Below, one piece after another: positions 51,118 through 59,083 of a stretch of DNA of 64,000 nt. The translations under genes were made by a program, and so were the position numbers. Source of the DNA: Candidatus Scalindua sp. (GTDB lineage: Bacteria; Planctomycetota; Brocadiia; Brocadiales; Scalinduaceae). The first letter of the stretch is position 1. Each line of letters starts with the position of its first letter. The stretch spans positions 62,001 to 126,000 of the forward strand of contig JAIQZU010000081.1 of the NCBI GenBank assembly GCA_021776915.1, read 5' to 3'. The notes under the pieces were generated by a model. The model was given only the letters and a program-made list of their open reading frames with translations. It was not told the DNA's origin and did no database searches.

Positions 51118-51155
51118 TTAAAATGTTCAGTTCAATCTGCAAAATTGACGGCAGG

Positions 51156-51203
51156 CCTCTCTTTCGAGAGGATTCCAAGACTGGAATCCTCTCGAAAGAG
51201 AGG
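51156..51203. repeat. 48-bp perfect hairpin repeat (copy 3)
   Basis: Arms of 22 bp, starting CCTCTCTTTCGAGAGGATTC and its reverse complement, with a 4-nt loop (AGAC), form a perfect palindromic structure. The inner CCTCTC-TTTC-GAGAGG is the same as in the 14.86-kb copy. It precedes the GT2 gene's preferred start by 61 bp. No T-run follows, so it is not a standard terminator. Confidence 0.8.
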
Positions 51204-51264
51204 AGCGTGTCCTTTCCTATTCGAAGTTCATAACTTCTGTTGCTATCAACATAAATACCTATCC

Positions 51265-51960
51265 ATGTATCACGATCCGAACATTTCTATTATAATCCCT
51301 GCAATAAATGAAGAAGAATCCATTGGCCTGGTTCTAAATGACATTCCCAAAGATATAGCAAGAGAGATTATTGTTGTAGATAATGGCAGTCATGACAATA
51401 CCGCTAATGTGGCAAAGGGTCTTGGCTCAACGGTAATGTTGGAGCCATTAAAAGGTTATGGTTCTGCCTGCCTCAGGGGTATATCCGTACTTAAAAAAGA
51501 TACTGATATTGTCGTTTTTCTTGATGCCGATTATAGCGACTATCCCCAGGATATGCATACAATTCTGAAACCAATATTAACCGGCAGGGCAGAAATGGTT
51601 ATAGGTTCTCGAATGTTGGGCACGAGAGAAAAAGGTGCGTTACTTCCACAGGCTTTTTTTGGAAATAAGCTGGCCGTTTTTTTAATCCGGTTATTCTGGG
51701 GGTTCAGGTATACGGACCTGGGCCCGTTCAGGGCAATCAGATATGAAGCATTGCTTGCCTTGAATATGGTCGACAAAAATTTCGGATGGACTGTTGAGAT
51801 GCAGATTAAGGCATTGAAGAAAGGGCTTAGGATTACGGAAGTTCCTGTAAGGTATCGCCGCCGTATTGGAAAATCGAAGATCACCGGCACTTTTTCAGGG
51901 ACAGTGCGTGCGGGTGTAAAAATTATTTATACCATCTTCAAGTATGGTTTTTCCAAGTAA
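51265..51960 (+). CDS. Dolichyl-phosphate mannose synthase-like GT2
   Basis: A ~231-residue GT2 enzyme with ISIIIPAINEEESIGLVLNDIP, IVVDNGSHDNTANVA, DXD motif VVFLDADYSDYPQD and IGSRMLGTREKG, TDLGPFRAIR, as in polyprenyl-phosphate glycosyltransferases of the DPM1 type. The ATG at 51265 is preferred because the upstream in-frame codons run through the hairpin repeat. The stop overlaps the long open frame of the next GT2 gene by 17 bp. Confidence 0.88.
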   Translation: MYHDPNISIIIPAINEEESIGLVLNDIPKDIAREIIVVDNGSHDNTANVAKGLGSTVMLEPLKGYGSACLRGISVLKKDTDIVVFLDADYSDYPQDMHTILKPILTGRAEMVIGSRMLGTREKGALLPQAFFGNKLAVFLIRLFWGFRYTDLGPFRAIRYEALLALNMVDKNFGWTVEMQIKALKKGLRITEVPVRYRRRIGKSKITGTFSGTVRAGVKIIYTIFKYGFSK

Positions 51961-52048
51961 CGTAATCACTCACGCAGTCGCTCCCCGGACTGGAAAACGC
52001 CGAGGACAAGAAGGACGCAAAGAAAAACAATTTTTTTTCGGTAAATAT

Positions 52049-52705
52049 ATGATGCCACTTAAAGAAATCTCAATAATAATACCTACTCTTAATGAGGAAA
52101 AGGTTATCAACCAATGTCTTGAAACCGTGGTGAATATTCCCGGTATTGAGGTAATAGTTTCTGATGGCGGCAGTACGGACAGGACAGTAGAGATTGCCGG
52201 ACAGCACAGCGATGTTAAAGTAGTTTCTTCTCTAACCGGGCGGAGCATTCAGATGAATAATGGGGCAACATGCGCCAGAGGCGAAATCCTCCTCTTTCTT
52301 CATGCAGACTGCGTGCTATCAAGGGAGGATGTTTTGAAGATTCGACAGATTTTTGATAGCGGCATATTTGTGGGTGGCGCCTTTAAGATCAAATTATTGT
52401 CTGATAAACGCACTTACAGATTGATAGAAATGGGTATAAACCTTCGCTCGAAGATATTTAAATTACCTTATGGAGATCAGGGAATATTTGTGAAGAGGTC
52501 TATATTTGAGAAATTGGGTGGTTTCAGAGAAATGCCGGTTTGTGAGGACCTCGACTTTATATGCCGCCTTAAAAAATGCGGAAGGATCACTATGCTTAAT
52601 GATAGAATTTTTTCTTCCGTAAGAACGTGGAAAAATTACGGCATCCTGCGAACCTCACTCAGGAATCAATTATTATTAGCTTCATATATGTTCAGGCAAG
52701 ATTAA
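52049..52705 (+). CDS. GT2-family transferase (rSAM/selenodomain-associated type)
   Basis: A ~218-residue GT2 protein: ISIIIPTLNEEKVINQCLETV, VIVSDGGSTDRTVEIAG, FLHADCVLS, YGDQGIFVKRSIFEKLGGF and ED (CEDLDFICRLKK). This is the layout of the small transferases often found as 'rSAM/selenodomain-associated transferase 2'. I prefer ATG 52049 (next 52052). The upstream frame (51944) extends through non-homologous DNA. It follows the DPM1-like gene, perhaps in one operon. Substrate unknown. Confidence 0.82.
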   Translation: MMPLKEISIIIPTLNEEKVINQCLETVVNIPGIEVIVSDGGSTDRTVEIAGQHSDVKVVSSLTGRSIQMNNGATCARGEILLFLHADCVLSREDVLKIRQIFDSGIFVGGAFKIKLLSDKRTYRLIEMGINLRSKIFKLPYGDQGIFVKRSIFEKLGGFREMPVCEDLDFICRLKKCGRITMLNDRIFSSVRTWKNYGILRTSLRNQLLLASYMFRQD

Positions 52706-53681: not shown

Positions 53682-53900
53682 ATGTTCTCCGGAACATTCA
53701 GTACAAATGATAATATAGTTTTTGCTGAAATTGAAACAGGCGTTAATATAGGACAGAAGGCGTCTCCATTTAAGCTGTCGACCTTTGACGGCAAGGAATT
53801 AGAGTTGGAATCTTTTGCTAAAGACAAGGTTACATTGCTGGTACTTGGCGCTACATGGCGTCCTTCATGCAGACATGAAATACCTATCCTTAAGGAATAA
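53682..53900 (+). pseudogene. Thioredoxin-like (TlpA/ResA) fragment
   Basis: A 72-codon frame reading IGQKASPFKLSTFDGKELEL, then LLVLGATWRPSCRHEIPILKE and a stop. This is the N-terminal half of a thioredoxin-like peroxiredoxin/ResA domain, ending right after the active site. The usual WCxxC is WRPSC, with the first Cys turned to Arg (TGT to CGT, one base). The C-terminal half of the fold is missing. It lies 15 bp after the MITE-like element and 25 bp before the flavoprotein-ferredoxin fusion. Confidence 0.72.
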
Positions 53901-53925: not shown

Positions 53926-56328
53926 ATGAATTTTGTATCTAACTATTTTAATTGGCTGCAAAGGGACAATCCCAAAAACATTGTCGAGAGTTATCCCGAA
54001 ATAGACGAACAAAAAGAAACTTCTGTCCCGGGTGTCTATATTGTGGGTGATTTGACCGGTATTCCCTTACTTAAACTCGCAGCAGATGGCGGGGCTAAAA
54101 TAGTAAAACAACTTTTCTCTGACCAAAAAACTGCCTTGGGAAAAAAGAAGGATGCCGAAGTTTACGATTTAGTCATTGTCGGCGCCGGACCGGCAGGTAT
54201 TTCCACAGCAATAGAATGTAAAAAAAAAGGCATTAATTACCTCGTTTTAGAATCAAACCGCATCTTAAACACGATAGAAAATTTTCCGAAGGAAAAACCC
54301 ATTACCTTGAAGCCGGATGGAGTACAACTGGAATTACCATTGGAAATGAACGATGGATTCAAGGAGACTCTCCTTGATGAACTTAAGTCACAAATAGAAA
54401 GGCAAGGCCTGAATTTCGAAGTTGGGGCCTTTGTTCAAAAACTCAGCCGCAAAGATAACATAATCCATATTGAAACAAACAAAGATACTTATATGGCGGA
54501 AAAGGTTGTGTTGGCCATAGGAAAAGCCGGTAACAGCAGACAGCTCAAGGTGCCCGGTGAATTATTACCAAAAGTATTCAATAAATTGTACGATCCCGGA
54601 GAATTTGCAGATAAAAATATTCTGGTTGTTGGTGGTGGTGACAGCTCGTTGGAGTGTTCTATTGCACTTGCAAAATCAGGAAATAGAATAATCCACTCAT
54701 ATCGTAAGGAAGAGTTCTCGAGGCCAAAAGAAGAAAACATGAACAAATTTCATGATCTGGTGGAGCAGGGCAAGATTACACCAGTTTTTGAATCAACGGT
54801 TACAGAAATACGGGAAAAAGAGATTATCCTGAAAACAAAAGATGATGTTAAAACCATACCTAATGACGTTGTCTTTACCCTCATTGGGCGTGAACTGCCC
54901 ACACAATTCTTCAAGCGAAGCGGCATACGCATGGAGGGAGAGAAGGGATTATTATGGTGGTGGTTTATGGTAGCATCGATAAGTTTTTTTTCCATGCTCT
55001 ATTTTGGTAAGGTCGGGATCGCTTTTGATGTGTTTGCAGGGTCTGATACTATATCGGCAAAGATAATTGCGTATTTAAGCGCACCCTTTCAAGCTCCGCT
55101 TAATTGGAGCCTTTCGGGTTACAAATGGTATCCATCATTAAACTTCATCCTGGGGTGGACGGGTTCAATAATTTTCCTGATTTCCGGAATATGCTCACTG
55201 GGATTTTTAGCAAGATACGGTAACGTTTATTTTCGGACTCCATGGCGTGCGTTTAAGTATACATATTTCATGGGAGTATGCGCATTTTTTACGATATTGT
55301 ATTTTTCTAAATTGTTGCATAACACTGCCGGAACGGCAGAATGGATCGAATCACCCACATATTGGTATTCACTTTTCTATTGCGTAACAATGCTCATCTT
55401 TGGTTTGCGTCGTTCATATGTCAGAAAAACACGCTATGTCTATCTGCAGATGACAGCCCTTGTGTCGATTCAAATCTTTTTTCTTTTCCTGCTTCCATTT
55501 CACCTGTACGAGCCGTTTATTCTCGACAACCTTGGCGCACAGCACTGGATAGTATCAGAACTATTCCCGAGCGGCAAATGGAGTAGTTTTGCTTTCATCT
55601 TGTTCTGGCCGCTGAATATGTGGGAATTTGGAAGCAGCTCTTTCTGGACATGGTTTCCTTTTGTACAGACGGGTTTGATTCTATTCTTTTTAATCAGGCA
55701 TTACGGGAAAGGTGTATATTGTGGTTGGATTTGCAGTTGTGGAGGTATGGCAGAAACGCTGGGAGATGAATACAGGCGTAAGACGCCACATGGCCCAGGG
55801 GCAAAAAGGCTTGAAAACATTGGCCAGATCGTCCTTTTTGCTGCCATCATTTTTACCCTGATTATCTATTTGAATAAATCAGGTATGTGGCGTTCGTTTC
55901 CTCTTTTGAGTTATACGATGACAGGTATATACAAATTTTCAATAGATGTTGTTTTTGCAGGCATACTCGGTCTTGGCGTCTACTTTTTTCTTGGTGGGAG
56001 AATTTGGTGCAGATATGGATGCCCACTTGCCGCACTCATGAACATATACACAAGATTTTCCAGATACCGGATTTTATCAGAAAAAAAAGACTGCATCTCC
56101 TGTGAAATCTGTACAAGAGTATGTCATATGGGAATAGATGTTATGAATTTTGCAAACAAGGGTACCCCCATGAACGATGTACAGTGTGTACGATGTTCGG
56201 CCTGCGTAACAGAGTGTCCTATGGATGTCCTTTCCTTCGCAAAGTTAAAAAATGCAGACATTCACAACTTGAGCAGAGAACAAATTCCTTATTATGGAAA
56301 AGATAACTGGCGCGCCGGGATAAAGTAA
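53926..56328 (+). CDS. Membrane flavoprotein fused to NapH/polyferredoxin-like domain, permuted
   Basis: An 800-residue protein. Near the N-terminus is TSVPGVYIVGDLTGIPLLKL (from residue 32), the flavin-binding GD motif that in thioredoxin-reductase-like enzymes sits at the C-terminus. It is followed by an FAD Rossmann motif GAGPAG (residues 86-91), a second nucleotide motif GGGDSS (residues 236-241) and no CxxC disulfide site. From ~343 there are several hydrophobic segments, then iron-sulfur motifs: CGWICSCGGM, CRYGCP, CISCEICTRVC and CVRCSACVTECP, as in NapH/NosR. It likely carries electrons from NAD(P)H or ferredoxin through the membrane. Partner and direction unknown. Confidence 0.85.
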   Translation: MNFVSNYFNWLQRDNPKNIVESYPEIDEQKETSVPGVYIVGDLTGIPLLKLAADGGAKIVKQLFSDQKTALGKKKDAEVYDLVIVGAGPAGISTAIECKKKGINYLVLESNRILNTIENFPKEKPITLKPDGVQLELPLEMNDGFKETLLDELKSQIERQGLNFEVGAFVQKLSRKDNIIHIETNKDTYMAEKVVLAIGKAGNSRQLKVPGELLPKVFNKLYDPGEFADKNILVVGGGDSSLECSIALAKSGNRIIHSYRKEEFSRPKEENMNKFHDLVEQGKITPVFESTVTEIREKEIILKTKDDVKTIPNDVVFTLIGRELPTQFFKRSGIRMEGEKGLLWWWFMVASISFFSMLYFGKVGIAFDVFAGSDTISAKIIAYLSAPFQAPLNWSLSGYKWYPSLNFILGWTGSIIFLISGICSLGFLARYGNVYFRTPWRAFKYTYFMGVCAFFTILYFSKLLHNTAGTAEWIESPTYWYSLFYCVTMLIFGLRRSYVRKTRYVYLQMTALVSIQIFFLFLLPFHLYEPFILDNLGAQHWIVSELFPSGKWSSFAFILFWPLNMWEFGSSSFWTWFPFVQTGLILFFLIRHYGKGVYCGWICSCGGMAETLGDEYRRKTPHGPGAKRLENIGQIVLFAAIIFTLIIYLNKSGMWRSFPLLSYTMTGIYKFSIDVVFAGILGLGVYFFLGGRIWCRYGCPLAALMNIYTRFSRYRILSEKKDCISCEICTRVCHMGIDVMNFANKGTPMNDVQCVRCSACVTECPMDVLSFAKLKNADIHNLSREQIPYYGKDNWRAGIK

Positions 56329-56511: not shown

Positions 56512-57582
56512 CTATTTAATTGGCGGAATAATAATTGGTAACTGATGAACGGGTGGAGGGTTCCCTCCTCTCCCTGAGCGGACAAAGCGTCCCGGACGAC
56601 CTACCGTGGTTTCAGGGTCTGGATTGGAAACCCCATACCTTAAGGTCATGGGTATATAGTCTACATTAAACAGTGTCAAATCGTATTGTTCAAATCTCAT
56701 CCAGTGATCAAAATCGTGATTGGCTGGGGTGTCCGGTGGTATTAACTCTTCGGCTGTGACTCTCGGGAAGTGCACTTCGAAGCTGCCTAAACCATCAGTC
56801 CTGAATGGAGCTCGGATAGAGCTGTCCGGCAAGTGTGGAAGCCCATGAATCTGGTGTGGAAGTCCAAGAAAAGAACTGCCCGGGAAAGAGGAACCGGCAT
56901 CATAAAAACCTAAAGCAGATGAAGAAGGATTATAATAGTCTCTTGGTACACTTGATGTAACACTCCAGCTTATAACTTCATCCTCGCGCAAGTAGCCATC
57001 TTCCCAAGCATCGCCATTAACGGTTAGGGTTGCTTCTATGTTGTACTCATATGAGGGGTCATCATTCACCCACGTGTATGTCAGAATGCGTTGAAAATAA
57101 CCTGAACCTTGCCAAGAAGGTTGTGGCAATGGATTAGTTATTCCGTAAGTATAATCGAACCATAGTTGGTCTGTATCAAAATTATAACCTATTATTTTGT
57201 GATCCATCCGTATCCAATGCATGTAATTCATAGGCGGATCTGGTAATGGGAAGTGGACTTCGTATCCGCCCAGAAAATCAAAGTTGTTCTTGAAGAGGTC
57301 GAAGCAATGGAGGCCGCTGGACGAATTATGGGAGCCCGCATTATGAAATCCACTATCTTGACCTAGCGATGTTACCGCCTGGAGAGACCAGCGTTGGACT
57401 TCATTTTCTTTTACCCTTCCGTCATCCCAAGCGTCCTTCTTGAGCGACAACCTGCCTTCCATCGCACTATACGGACTTCCATCTTCGTGGATCCATATGT
57501 ATTTCAGACTCTTATCTGCGCATGAACTAAACAAAGCCATGACGGATACCATGCTAATAATGTAAAAAAGGTTCCTTATCAT
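56512..57582 (-). CDS. Lipoprotein with a duplicated domain, unknown function
   Basis: A 356-residue secreted lipoprotein with a signal peptide and lipobox LFSSC (Cys21). Two copies of one domain follow: KDAWDDGRVKENEVQRWSLQ with FHNAGSHNSSSGL, and GDAWEDGYLREDEVISWSVT with FYDAGSSFPGSSF, each followed by FEVHFP-like and HWMR-like stretches. The C-terminal tail is Pro-rich. I do not recognise the family. A surface-exposed structural or binding role is possible. Confidence 0.75.
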   Translation of the reverse strand: MIRNLFYIISMVSVMALFSSCADKSLKYIWIHEDGSPYSAMEGRLSLKKDAWDDGRVKENEVQRWSLQAVTSLGQDSGFHNAGSHNSSSGLHCFDLFKNNFDFLGGYEVHFPLPDPPMNYMHWIRMDHKIIGYNFDTDQLWFDYTYGITNPLPQPSWQGSGYFQRILTYTWVNDDPSYEYNIEATLTVNGDAWEDGYLREDEVISWSVTSSVPRDYYNPSSSALGFYDAGSSFPGSSFLGLPHQIHGLPHLPDSSIRAPFRTDGLGSFEVHFPRVTAEELIPPDTPANHDFDHWMRFEQYDLTLFNVDYIPMTLRYGVSNPDPETTVGRPGRFVRSGRGGNPPPVHQLPIIIPPIK

Positions 57583-58050: not shown

Positions 58051-59083
58051 CTAAGCCACAGCATAGGATACTTTATCGTTTTTGAAAAACGACAGGATAA
58101 GTTTCTTTTCTCTTTTAATAGATTCAAGATCAAGTATAGCCCTCTTTTTTAATGATTCTCCCTTTTTAAGCGGCTTTTTAGAAGTGCCTATGTTTCGCAT
58201 TTGATTCCAAACAAGTTCGTCAGGATTAAGATCTGGTGCATAAGGTGAGCAAATACATTTCCAATTTCCCGTTGAGACCCTTTATATATTCTTTAATAAC
58301 TTTGGCTTTATGCACCGGATGGCCATCCATGATTATAAAAATACGCTTACGTCTATAACGCATGAAGTTTTTAAGGCATTCAATAAATTTGGTTGCATTA
58401 AAACGACCATTATAAACCATATACCAGAAGCCTCCTTTATTGGATAATGCCGATATCGCATTAATTGATTGCCTTTGTCCACTTGTTTGAACAATTGGTG
58501 TTTTCCCTTTTAATCCCCATGTTCGTTGCAGTGGATCATCTGACCGTATCGATGCTTCATCCAACCAGAATATTTCAGCTTTCCTTTGCTTTGCACGCTT
58601 TCTAATACAAATATAATCTCTTTTAAGCCATTTATTAATTGCTTTAGGATCACGTTCGTATGCCCGGCGTAAAGGCTTTTGAGGTGTTAACCCCTGACGA
58701 CGTAAAAGCCTTCCTACTGAGTTGGCACTCAATTTAATACCAATGCGATCCCAAATCAAATCAGAAATTATTTCTCGTGTCCAAAGTCCAAAGTCAAAAT
58801 TGTATTGGCGAGGATCCTTATCAACTATCCAACGTTTGACTTCTTGTTCTTCTTGTATCGTTAATTTACGTCTTCGACCAGGTTTCGGTTTAGGTGCAAG
58901 GCTGTCAATGCCTTCTTCCCTTGCTTTCTTGAGCCAACGAAATATACTCTTTGGGCTTAGACCATAACTTGCTGTAACATTGCAAGGTTTCTCACCATCC
59001 AACACTCGCTTTACTGATGTGCGTCTAATAAAAGCTTTTTCTTGTATCGATAACTTACGGCCATCTGTTTTCATTTGCGCCAT
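58051..59083 (-). pseudogene. IS630-family transposase, frameshifted before the last catalytic residue
   Basis: The 285-codon frame 58226-59083 encodes the N-terminal HTH (SIQEKAFIRRTSVKRVL, GLSPKSIFRWLKKA) and DDE region (FWLDEASIRSDDPL, FIIMDGHPVHKAK) but ends with YLLTLCTRS. In the +1 frame the DNA continues SPYAPDLNPDELVWNQMRN, the IS630 'SP..PDLNP(D/I)E' with the last catalytic Glu, through SFFKNDKVSYAVA to a TAG at 58051-58053. A +1 frameshift near 58245-58255 is needed. It could be programmed, but the locus looks inactive. Terminal repeats were not identified with certainty. Confidence 0.8.

Follow-up and report, generated by a model that had tools for sequence, protein, structure and literature searches.

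The locus raised the question of whether an 800-aa protein of Candidatus Scalindua sp., described in a first-pass annotation as a thioredoxin reductase (TrxR)-like flavoprotein in permuted order fused to a membrane polyferredoxin, is a genuine fusion and which electron transfer it may serve. The gene lies in a window of 64,000 nucleotides, meaning the whole stretch of DNA analyzed (Table 1), and the architecture of the permuted fusion protein was well supported. Its start Met matched the start position of most relatives in the alignment, and the full-length AlphaFold model from a 55-sequence alignment reached a pLDDT of 86.2 and a pTM of 0.81. Pfam and NCBIfam matches were obtained for Pyr_redox_3 (5.8e-41), YpdA (3.6e-46), TrxR (3.9e-23), and NapH (1e-15), with the three NCBIfam matches (YpdA, TrxR, and NapH) all under their curated cut-offs. 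An assembly artefact was ruled out because dozens of independent MAGs showed the identical fusion. Neither Rfam nor tRNA scans gave any hit in the window.

Table 1. Coordinates, in window positions, of the permuted gene, its motifs, and neighboring glycosyltransferase genes.
Feature	Position	Strand	Basis
Whole gene, permuted TrxR/YpdA-like flavoprotein + NapH-like membrane polyferredoxin, 800 aa	53926..56328	+	Single ORF, 55-member full-length alignment, AlphaFold
Permuted last FAD-binding block, residues 20-68	53983..54129	+	phmmer, segment moving, block HMM
TSVPGVYIVGDL, residues 32-43	54019..54054	+	Inside permuted FAD block
FAD Rossmann motif GAGPAG, residues 86-91	54181..54198	+	phmmer, family alignment
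NADPH Rossmann motif GGGDSS (236-241) + basic motif SYRKEEFSRPK (258-268)	54631..54729	+	Family alignment
Membrane part, eight predicted helices	54949..55977	+	DSSP of AlphaFold model
Loop motif C599-x3-C603-x-C605, cytoplasmic	55720..55740	+	Three Cys invariant
C695-x3-C699-P motif, as in NapH/NosR/CcoG	56008..56022	+	Invariant
First [4Fe-4S] ferredoxin motif C723-x2-C-x2-C-x3-C733, then invariant H734	56092..56124	+	Alignment; Pfam Fer4 dicluster
Second [4Fe-4S] ferredoxin motif C754-x2-C-x2-C-x3-C764	56185..56217	+	Alignment; Pfam Fer4 dicluster
TIGR04283 'arsenosugar biosynthesis glycosyltransferase', 1.2 kb upstream	51944..52705	+	229.5 bits vs cut-off 182
Dolichyl-phosphate-mannose-synthase-like glycosyltransferase	51145..51960	+	58% identity to L028:13217-13963

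The first-pass placement of a flavin block (TSVPGVYIVGDL) ahead of the FAD and NAD(P) motifs was exact to the residue. TrxR 3cty was matched twice by phmmer, with residues 23-67 aligning to its C-terminal end (269-315) and residues 75-341 to its front. An HMM of residues 20-68 built from 55 relatives matched the C-terminal FAD block of ordinary flavoproteins encoded by the same genome (i-E 4.4e-8 and 1.1e-5); in the better hit, a protein of 472 aa with Rossmann motifs at 13 and 182, the match fell behind both, at residues 297-340. When residues 20-68 were placed behind the core, the YpdA score rose from 160.8 to 174.2 bits (+13.4) and that of TrxR from 86.8 to 96.8 bits (+10.0), whereas a shuffled segment lowered them to 159.2 and 77.6 bits, respectively. 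Coverage of the TrxR model ended at 250/300 in the permuted protein compared to 2-300 in the canonical TrxR of the same genome. The block was N-terminal in 55/55 aligned relatives, and among these G41, G86, G88, G91, and G199 of the FAD site were invariant with D42 (54/55) and E109 nearly so. The block was modeled at a pLDDT of 90-92 with a confident beta strand (37-39) that would pair within the FAD fold, and superposition of the flavin part on YpdA 7a7b with Foldseek (E 9e-21, TMt 0.73) placed about 267/323 residues in sequential order, which fits a last block located elsewhere. Folded alone, the flavin module reached a pTM of 0.73 with a domain arrangement unlike that of the full-length model. 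Judged by sequence comparison, the N-terminal block is a true circular permutation of a TrxR/YpdA-type flavoprotein because its profile finds the flavin block that ordinary flavoproteins carry at the C-terminus; the proposed combination of permutation and fusion was borne out by the profile, phmmer, segment-moving, and model-coverage comparisons.

The basic motif following the NADPH Rossmann motif was of the 2'-phosphate type, including R260 (invariant), R266 (54/55), and K268 (53/55) that we take to resemble NADPH-binding TrxR motifs, and it suggests a preference for NADPH. The closest family in both sequence (E 1.5e-30) and fold was YpdA/Bdr (TIGR04018; PDB 7a7b and 7a76), which has the FAD and NADPH motifs in common with the permuted protein but differs from it in that the latter carries its last FAD block N-terminally, lacks the active-site Cys, and is fused to a membrane Fe-S part. 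With YpdA and TrxR as the best sequence and fold matches, the protein could be a membrane-anchored thiol-disulfide reductase resembling YpdA (bacillithiol disulfide reductase) or TrxR, a role that is nevertheless very improbable. The CxxC was missing, as already observed in the first pass, Ala in GAGPAG takes the place of the YpdA redox Cys (GGGPCG), no Cys was conserved in residues 1-345 across the 55 members, and the scores were far under the family cut-offs for both YpdA (157.4 vs. 339.9 bits) and TrxR (TIGR01292; 81.7 vs. 343.45 bits), the FAD-NADPH-FAD order of the latter, which ends in a C-terminal GD motif, also being absent. Thiol-disulfide chemistry was rejected on the missing Cys. 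A functional analog was found in the TrxR-type ferredoxin/flavodoxin NADP+ reductases (3ab1, 3lzw, 6gar, and 6gas), which likewise have a TrxR-like fold without CxxC and transfer electrons from NADPH to a one-electron carrier. Those reductases are unpermuted, form soluble dimers, and use a separate ferredoxin, whereas the permuted protein would have its carrier built in and be membrane-anchored.

The eight helices were predicted at residues 342-363, 401-430, 439-463, 472-499, 503-536, 572-593, 624-651, and 659-684, and the loop charges fit the positive-inside rule with cytoplasmic N- and C-termini, such that the flavin module and all Cys motifs are predicted by the model to face the cytoplasm. 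The NapH-like membrane part with two [4Fe-4S] motifs was recovered by a NapH-family match and by location of C723-C733 and C754-C764, both motifs being 96-100% conserved, with C599, C603, C605, C695, C699, C723, C726, C729, C733, H734, C754, and C757 invariant in the 55 members and C760 and C764 >90% conserved. Compared to NapH/MauN (TIGR02163; also NosR/CcoG), the helices, a CxxxCP-type motif, and the two cytoplasmic C-terminal [4Fe-4S] motifs were common to both, while the permuted protein had four extra helices in front, the flavoprotein fusion, and a first motif of the form CxxxCxC. Of the two CxxxCP motifs of NapH/MauN, only the second was present (CRYGCP) with CGWICSC in place of the first, and the score was 58 vs. 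213 bits. No nap genes were identified in the neighborhoods examined. Heme-mediated transmembrane electron transfer was ruled out because the family alignment showed no conserved His, and hence no His pair, in the extra helices.

The search for related loci identified 66 genome loci in Scalindua, Anammoxibacter, Fibrobacterota, Lentisphaerota, Ignavibacteriota, Bacteroidota, Aminicenantota, Acidobacteriota, Myxococcota, Spirochaetota, Chrysiogenota, candidate phyla, and one archaeon. This naturally occurring, circularly permuted TrxR/YpdA fold has been kept over at least 10 bacterial phyla plus the archaeon, apparently always fused to a membrane polyferredoxin that puts flavin and clusters in a single chain, and the fusion was retained wherever the contig was intact. 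Five seemingly shorter copies in Planctomycetota that might have held other C-terminal partners (G063, G075, G107, G108, and G253) carried the same membrane part, and one further copy (G292) was cut off by a contig end. The family was found in 41/294 Planctomycetota genomes, with both halves in one frame in complete copies, and a second subfamily with equal permuted order and fusion was present in other Planctomycetota. No described family with this architecture was found in the open-access literature searched, and the family is conserved but apparently unnamed. In the phylogenetic tree, the window protein grouped with Scalindua and next with Anammoxibacter (support 100) within a mixed Lentisphaerota/Fibrobacterota group, and this nesting of the anammox copies suggests horizontal spread.

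Redox fusions of several domains are common in anammox bacteria, and the presence of the family in Scalindua and Anammoxibacter could reflect a component of anammox catabolism acting in hydrazine, nitrite, or ferredoxin electron flow. Its distribution largely refuted this role, which is extremely improbable: the family was carried, patchily, by 11/62 genomes of the anammox order, only in the Scalinduaceae and Anammoxibacteraceae, and was absent from 99-100% complete genomes of other anammox families and from several near-complete (~95%) Scalindua, while most carriers were non-anammox bacteria and several Scalindua copies were disrupted. Of the first-pass claim, the membrane NAD(P)H-to-Fe-S electron-transfer role holds as a reading of the anatomy, but its fit with anammox redox metabolism was not sustained. 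The disrupted Scalindua copies (L003, L005, G375, G381, and G382) contained frameshifts or in-frame stops due to either decay or assembly error.

Gene neighborhoods of the relatives, which often include genes for joining arsenic to sugars or nucleosides, instead point to organoarsenical (arsenosugar-type) biosynthesis. The operon at L028 consisted of Rieske/FMN_red, the permuted gene, ArsM, a TIGR04283+TIGR04282 fusion, DUF547, TIGR04169, ArsS (427 bits vs. cut-off 300), and a DPM-like glycosyltransferase. DUF547 was situated within about 6 kb of the permuted gene in 25 loci and ArsS in 12, with the roles of DUF547 and TIGR04282/04283 themselves deduced from context. ArsS (TIGR04167) was encoded in 34/50 other carrier genomes, and in eight of the 16 ArsS-less carriers ArsM was fused to, or next to, a radical SAM gene (42/50 in total), with neither arrangement in G004, G005, G009, G032, G033, G037, G038, and G042. 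Among the Planctomycetota (n = 294), ArsS was present in 29/41 carriers vs. 62/253 non-carriers (Fisher 1.6e-8) and lay ≤5.2 kb from the permuted gene in 10 genomes from six lineages (~0.08 expected), p-values that overstate the association because the genomes are not independent, five of the ten co-localized Planctomycetes being of one genus and genome counts being phylogenetically correlated. The permuted protein is not needed for ArsS, since 62/91 ArsS-bearing Planctomycetota were without the family, and radical SAM-ArsM genes were spread through the anammox order, in most cases in its absence.

A permuted-order paralogue (31-36% identical) closed arsenic-type operons in two Scalinduaceae relatives (G371 and G372), with the G371 operon also holding an FMN reductase and an NADPH-producing glucose-6-phosphate dehydrogenase (G6PD). 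The Scalinduaceae paralogue operons comprised FMN reductase, G6PD, DUF547, GT2, radical SAM-ArsM, and the paralogue (L146), and DUF547, PHO4, radical SAM-ArsM, a small ORF, and the paralogue (L145). In the archaeal carrier SI037_bin40 (L149 and L053), the permuted gene overlapped a TIGR04282 gene, and elsewhere a single contig held in a row a phosphatase-family ORF (LMWPc, ArsC-like by motif), radical SAM, ArsM, and MTA-phosphorylase genes as a candidate archaeal organoarsenical pathway.

The window genome itself carried both TIGR04283, in the window, and TIGR04282 (206.8 bits vs. cut-off 134), on another contig, and a homolog of its dolichyl-phosphate-mannose-synthase-like glycosyltransferase followed ArsS in Ignavibacterial operons. 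DUF547 was located 14 kb downstream of the permuted gene on the same contig, beyond a ~14 kb segment (56329 to extrapolated 70336) of signaling genes and an IS630-like transposase (58226-59083). This segment appears to have split the gene pair because DUF547 directly follows the permuted gene (15-142 nt) in three other Scalindua. After DUF547 came FMN_red, CMD peroxidase, PHO4, GT2, DUF3179, and an 856-aa natural radical SAM/SPASM-ArsM fusion (contig 141469-144036; L132:9470-12037; window-extrapolated 79469-82039) ~23 kb downstream of the permuted gene, such that DUF547 and the fusion span 14-26 kb downstream. This fusion combines the ArsM-type methyltransferase and the radical SAM partner expected of an organoarsenical locus, and full-length versions of it (48-92% identical) were identified in most Scalinduaceae, Anammoxibacteraceae, and a few other families of the order, with shorter (about 600 aa) and more distant fusions in other anammox genomes. 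ArsS (TIGR04167) was absent from the window genome, so that any organoarsenical product of Scalindua may be something other than a classical arsenosugar.

In view of these neighborhoods, the protein probably does not belong to the anammox energy machinery but supplies electrons specifically for the making of organic arsenic compounds. The reading we favor, at somewhat better than even probability, is a membrane-bound reductase that passes electrons from NADPH through FAD to [4Fe-4S] clusters and on to organoarsenical synthesis or to a quinone. According to sequence and model, the complete but permuted TrxR/YpdA-type module would bind both FAD and NADPH at the cytoplasmic face, the eight helices would act as membrane anchor, and the NapH-like tail would hold two [4Fe-4S] clusters on the same side. 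Hydride would pass from NADPH, potentially supplied by the pentose phosphate pathway whose genes were present in several of these operons, to FAD and then as single electrons to the clusters because no dithiol is available. The acceptor is suggested by gene neighborhood, and the electrons would enter organoarsenical synthesis by reduction of the radical SAM protein (ArsS or, in the Scalinduaceae, the radical SAM-ArsM fusion) or alternatively by reducing As(V) to As(III) and so keeping methylarsenicals trivalent; a membrane quinone may be a partner.

A general membrane NAD(P)H:quinone oxidoreductase with menaquinone as acceptor, functioning in NADPH redox balancing with the arsenic genes incidental, is possible but rather unlikely. 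The NapH-like part and the invariant polar helix residues Y481, Y485, Y504, and Q516 could form a quinone site, and in Ignavibacteriota (L019, L034, L041, L046, and L052) the permuted gene heads apparent oxidative pentose phosphate operons encoding G6PD, 6-phosphogluconolactonase, 6PGD-like, and transaldolase-isomerase (transaldolase-PGI) proteins without adjoining arsenic genes. However, these same Ignavibacteriota have ArsS elsewhere in the genome, and the clustering with ArsS, ArsM, or radical SAM-ArsM was repeated in multiple phyla.

Within the organoarsenical reading, the potential of NADPH may be too high to reduce a radical SAM cluster unaided. A more tentative proposal, to which we give roughly one chance in three, is that these unnamed, widespread permuted NADPH:[4Fe-4S] reductases are the dedicated donor for C-As-forming radical SAM chemistry, with the membrane part perhaps lowering the potential. 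ArsS is described as forming the C-As bond (Cheng et al., 2021, as cited in PMC12159101), and an arsenosugar pathway of ArsM and ArsS is known from Synechocystis (PMC8552651). The genes of this pathway were recurrent neighbors of the permuted gene, which is not among its described enzymes. The open-access literature found named neither a reductase of this kind nor a physiological electron donor for arsenosugar-type biosynthesis, and the organoarsenical link of the permuted family is new as far as searched. The membrane reductase in arsenic loci together with the radical SAM-ArsM fusion across anammox genomes constitutes a testable gene set.

Two further ORFs were observed beside the permuted gene. 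Just upstream, a truncated 72-aa TlpA/redoxin-like remnant (GVNIGQKASPFKLSTFDGKELELESFAKDKVTLLVLGATWRPSC...) without the first active-site Cys was found at window positions 53682-53900 (+), and downstream, a 356-aa lipoprotein-like ORF at 56512-57582 (-) gave no Pfam match and was composed of two similar halves.
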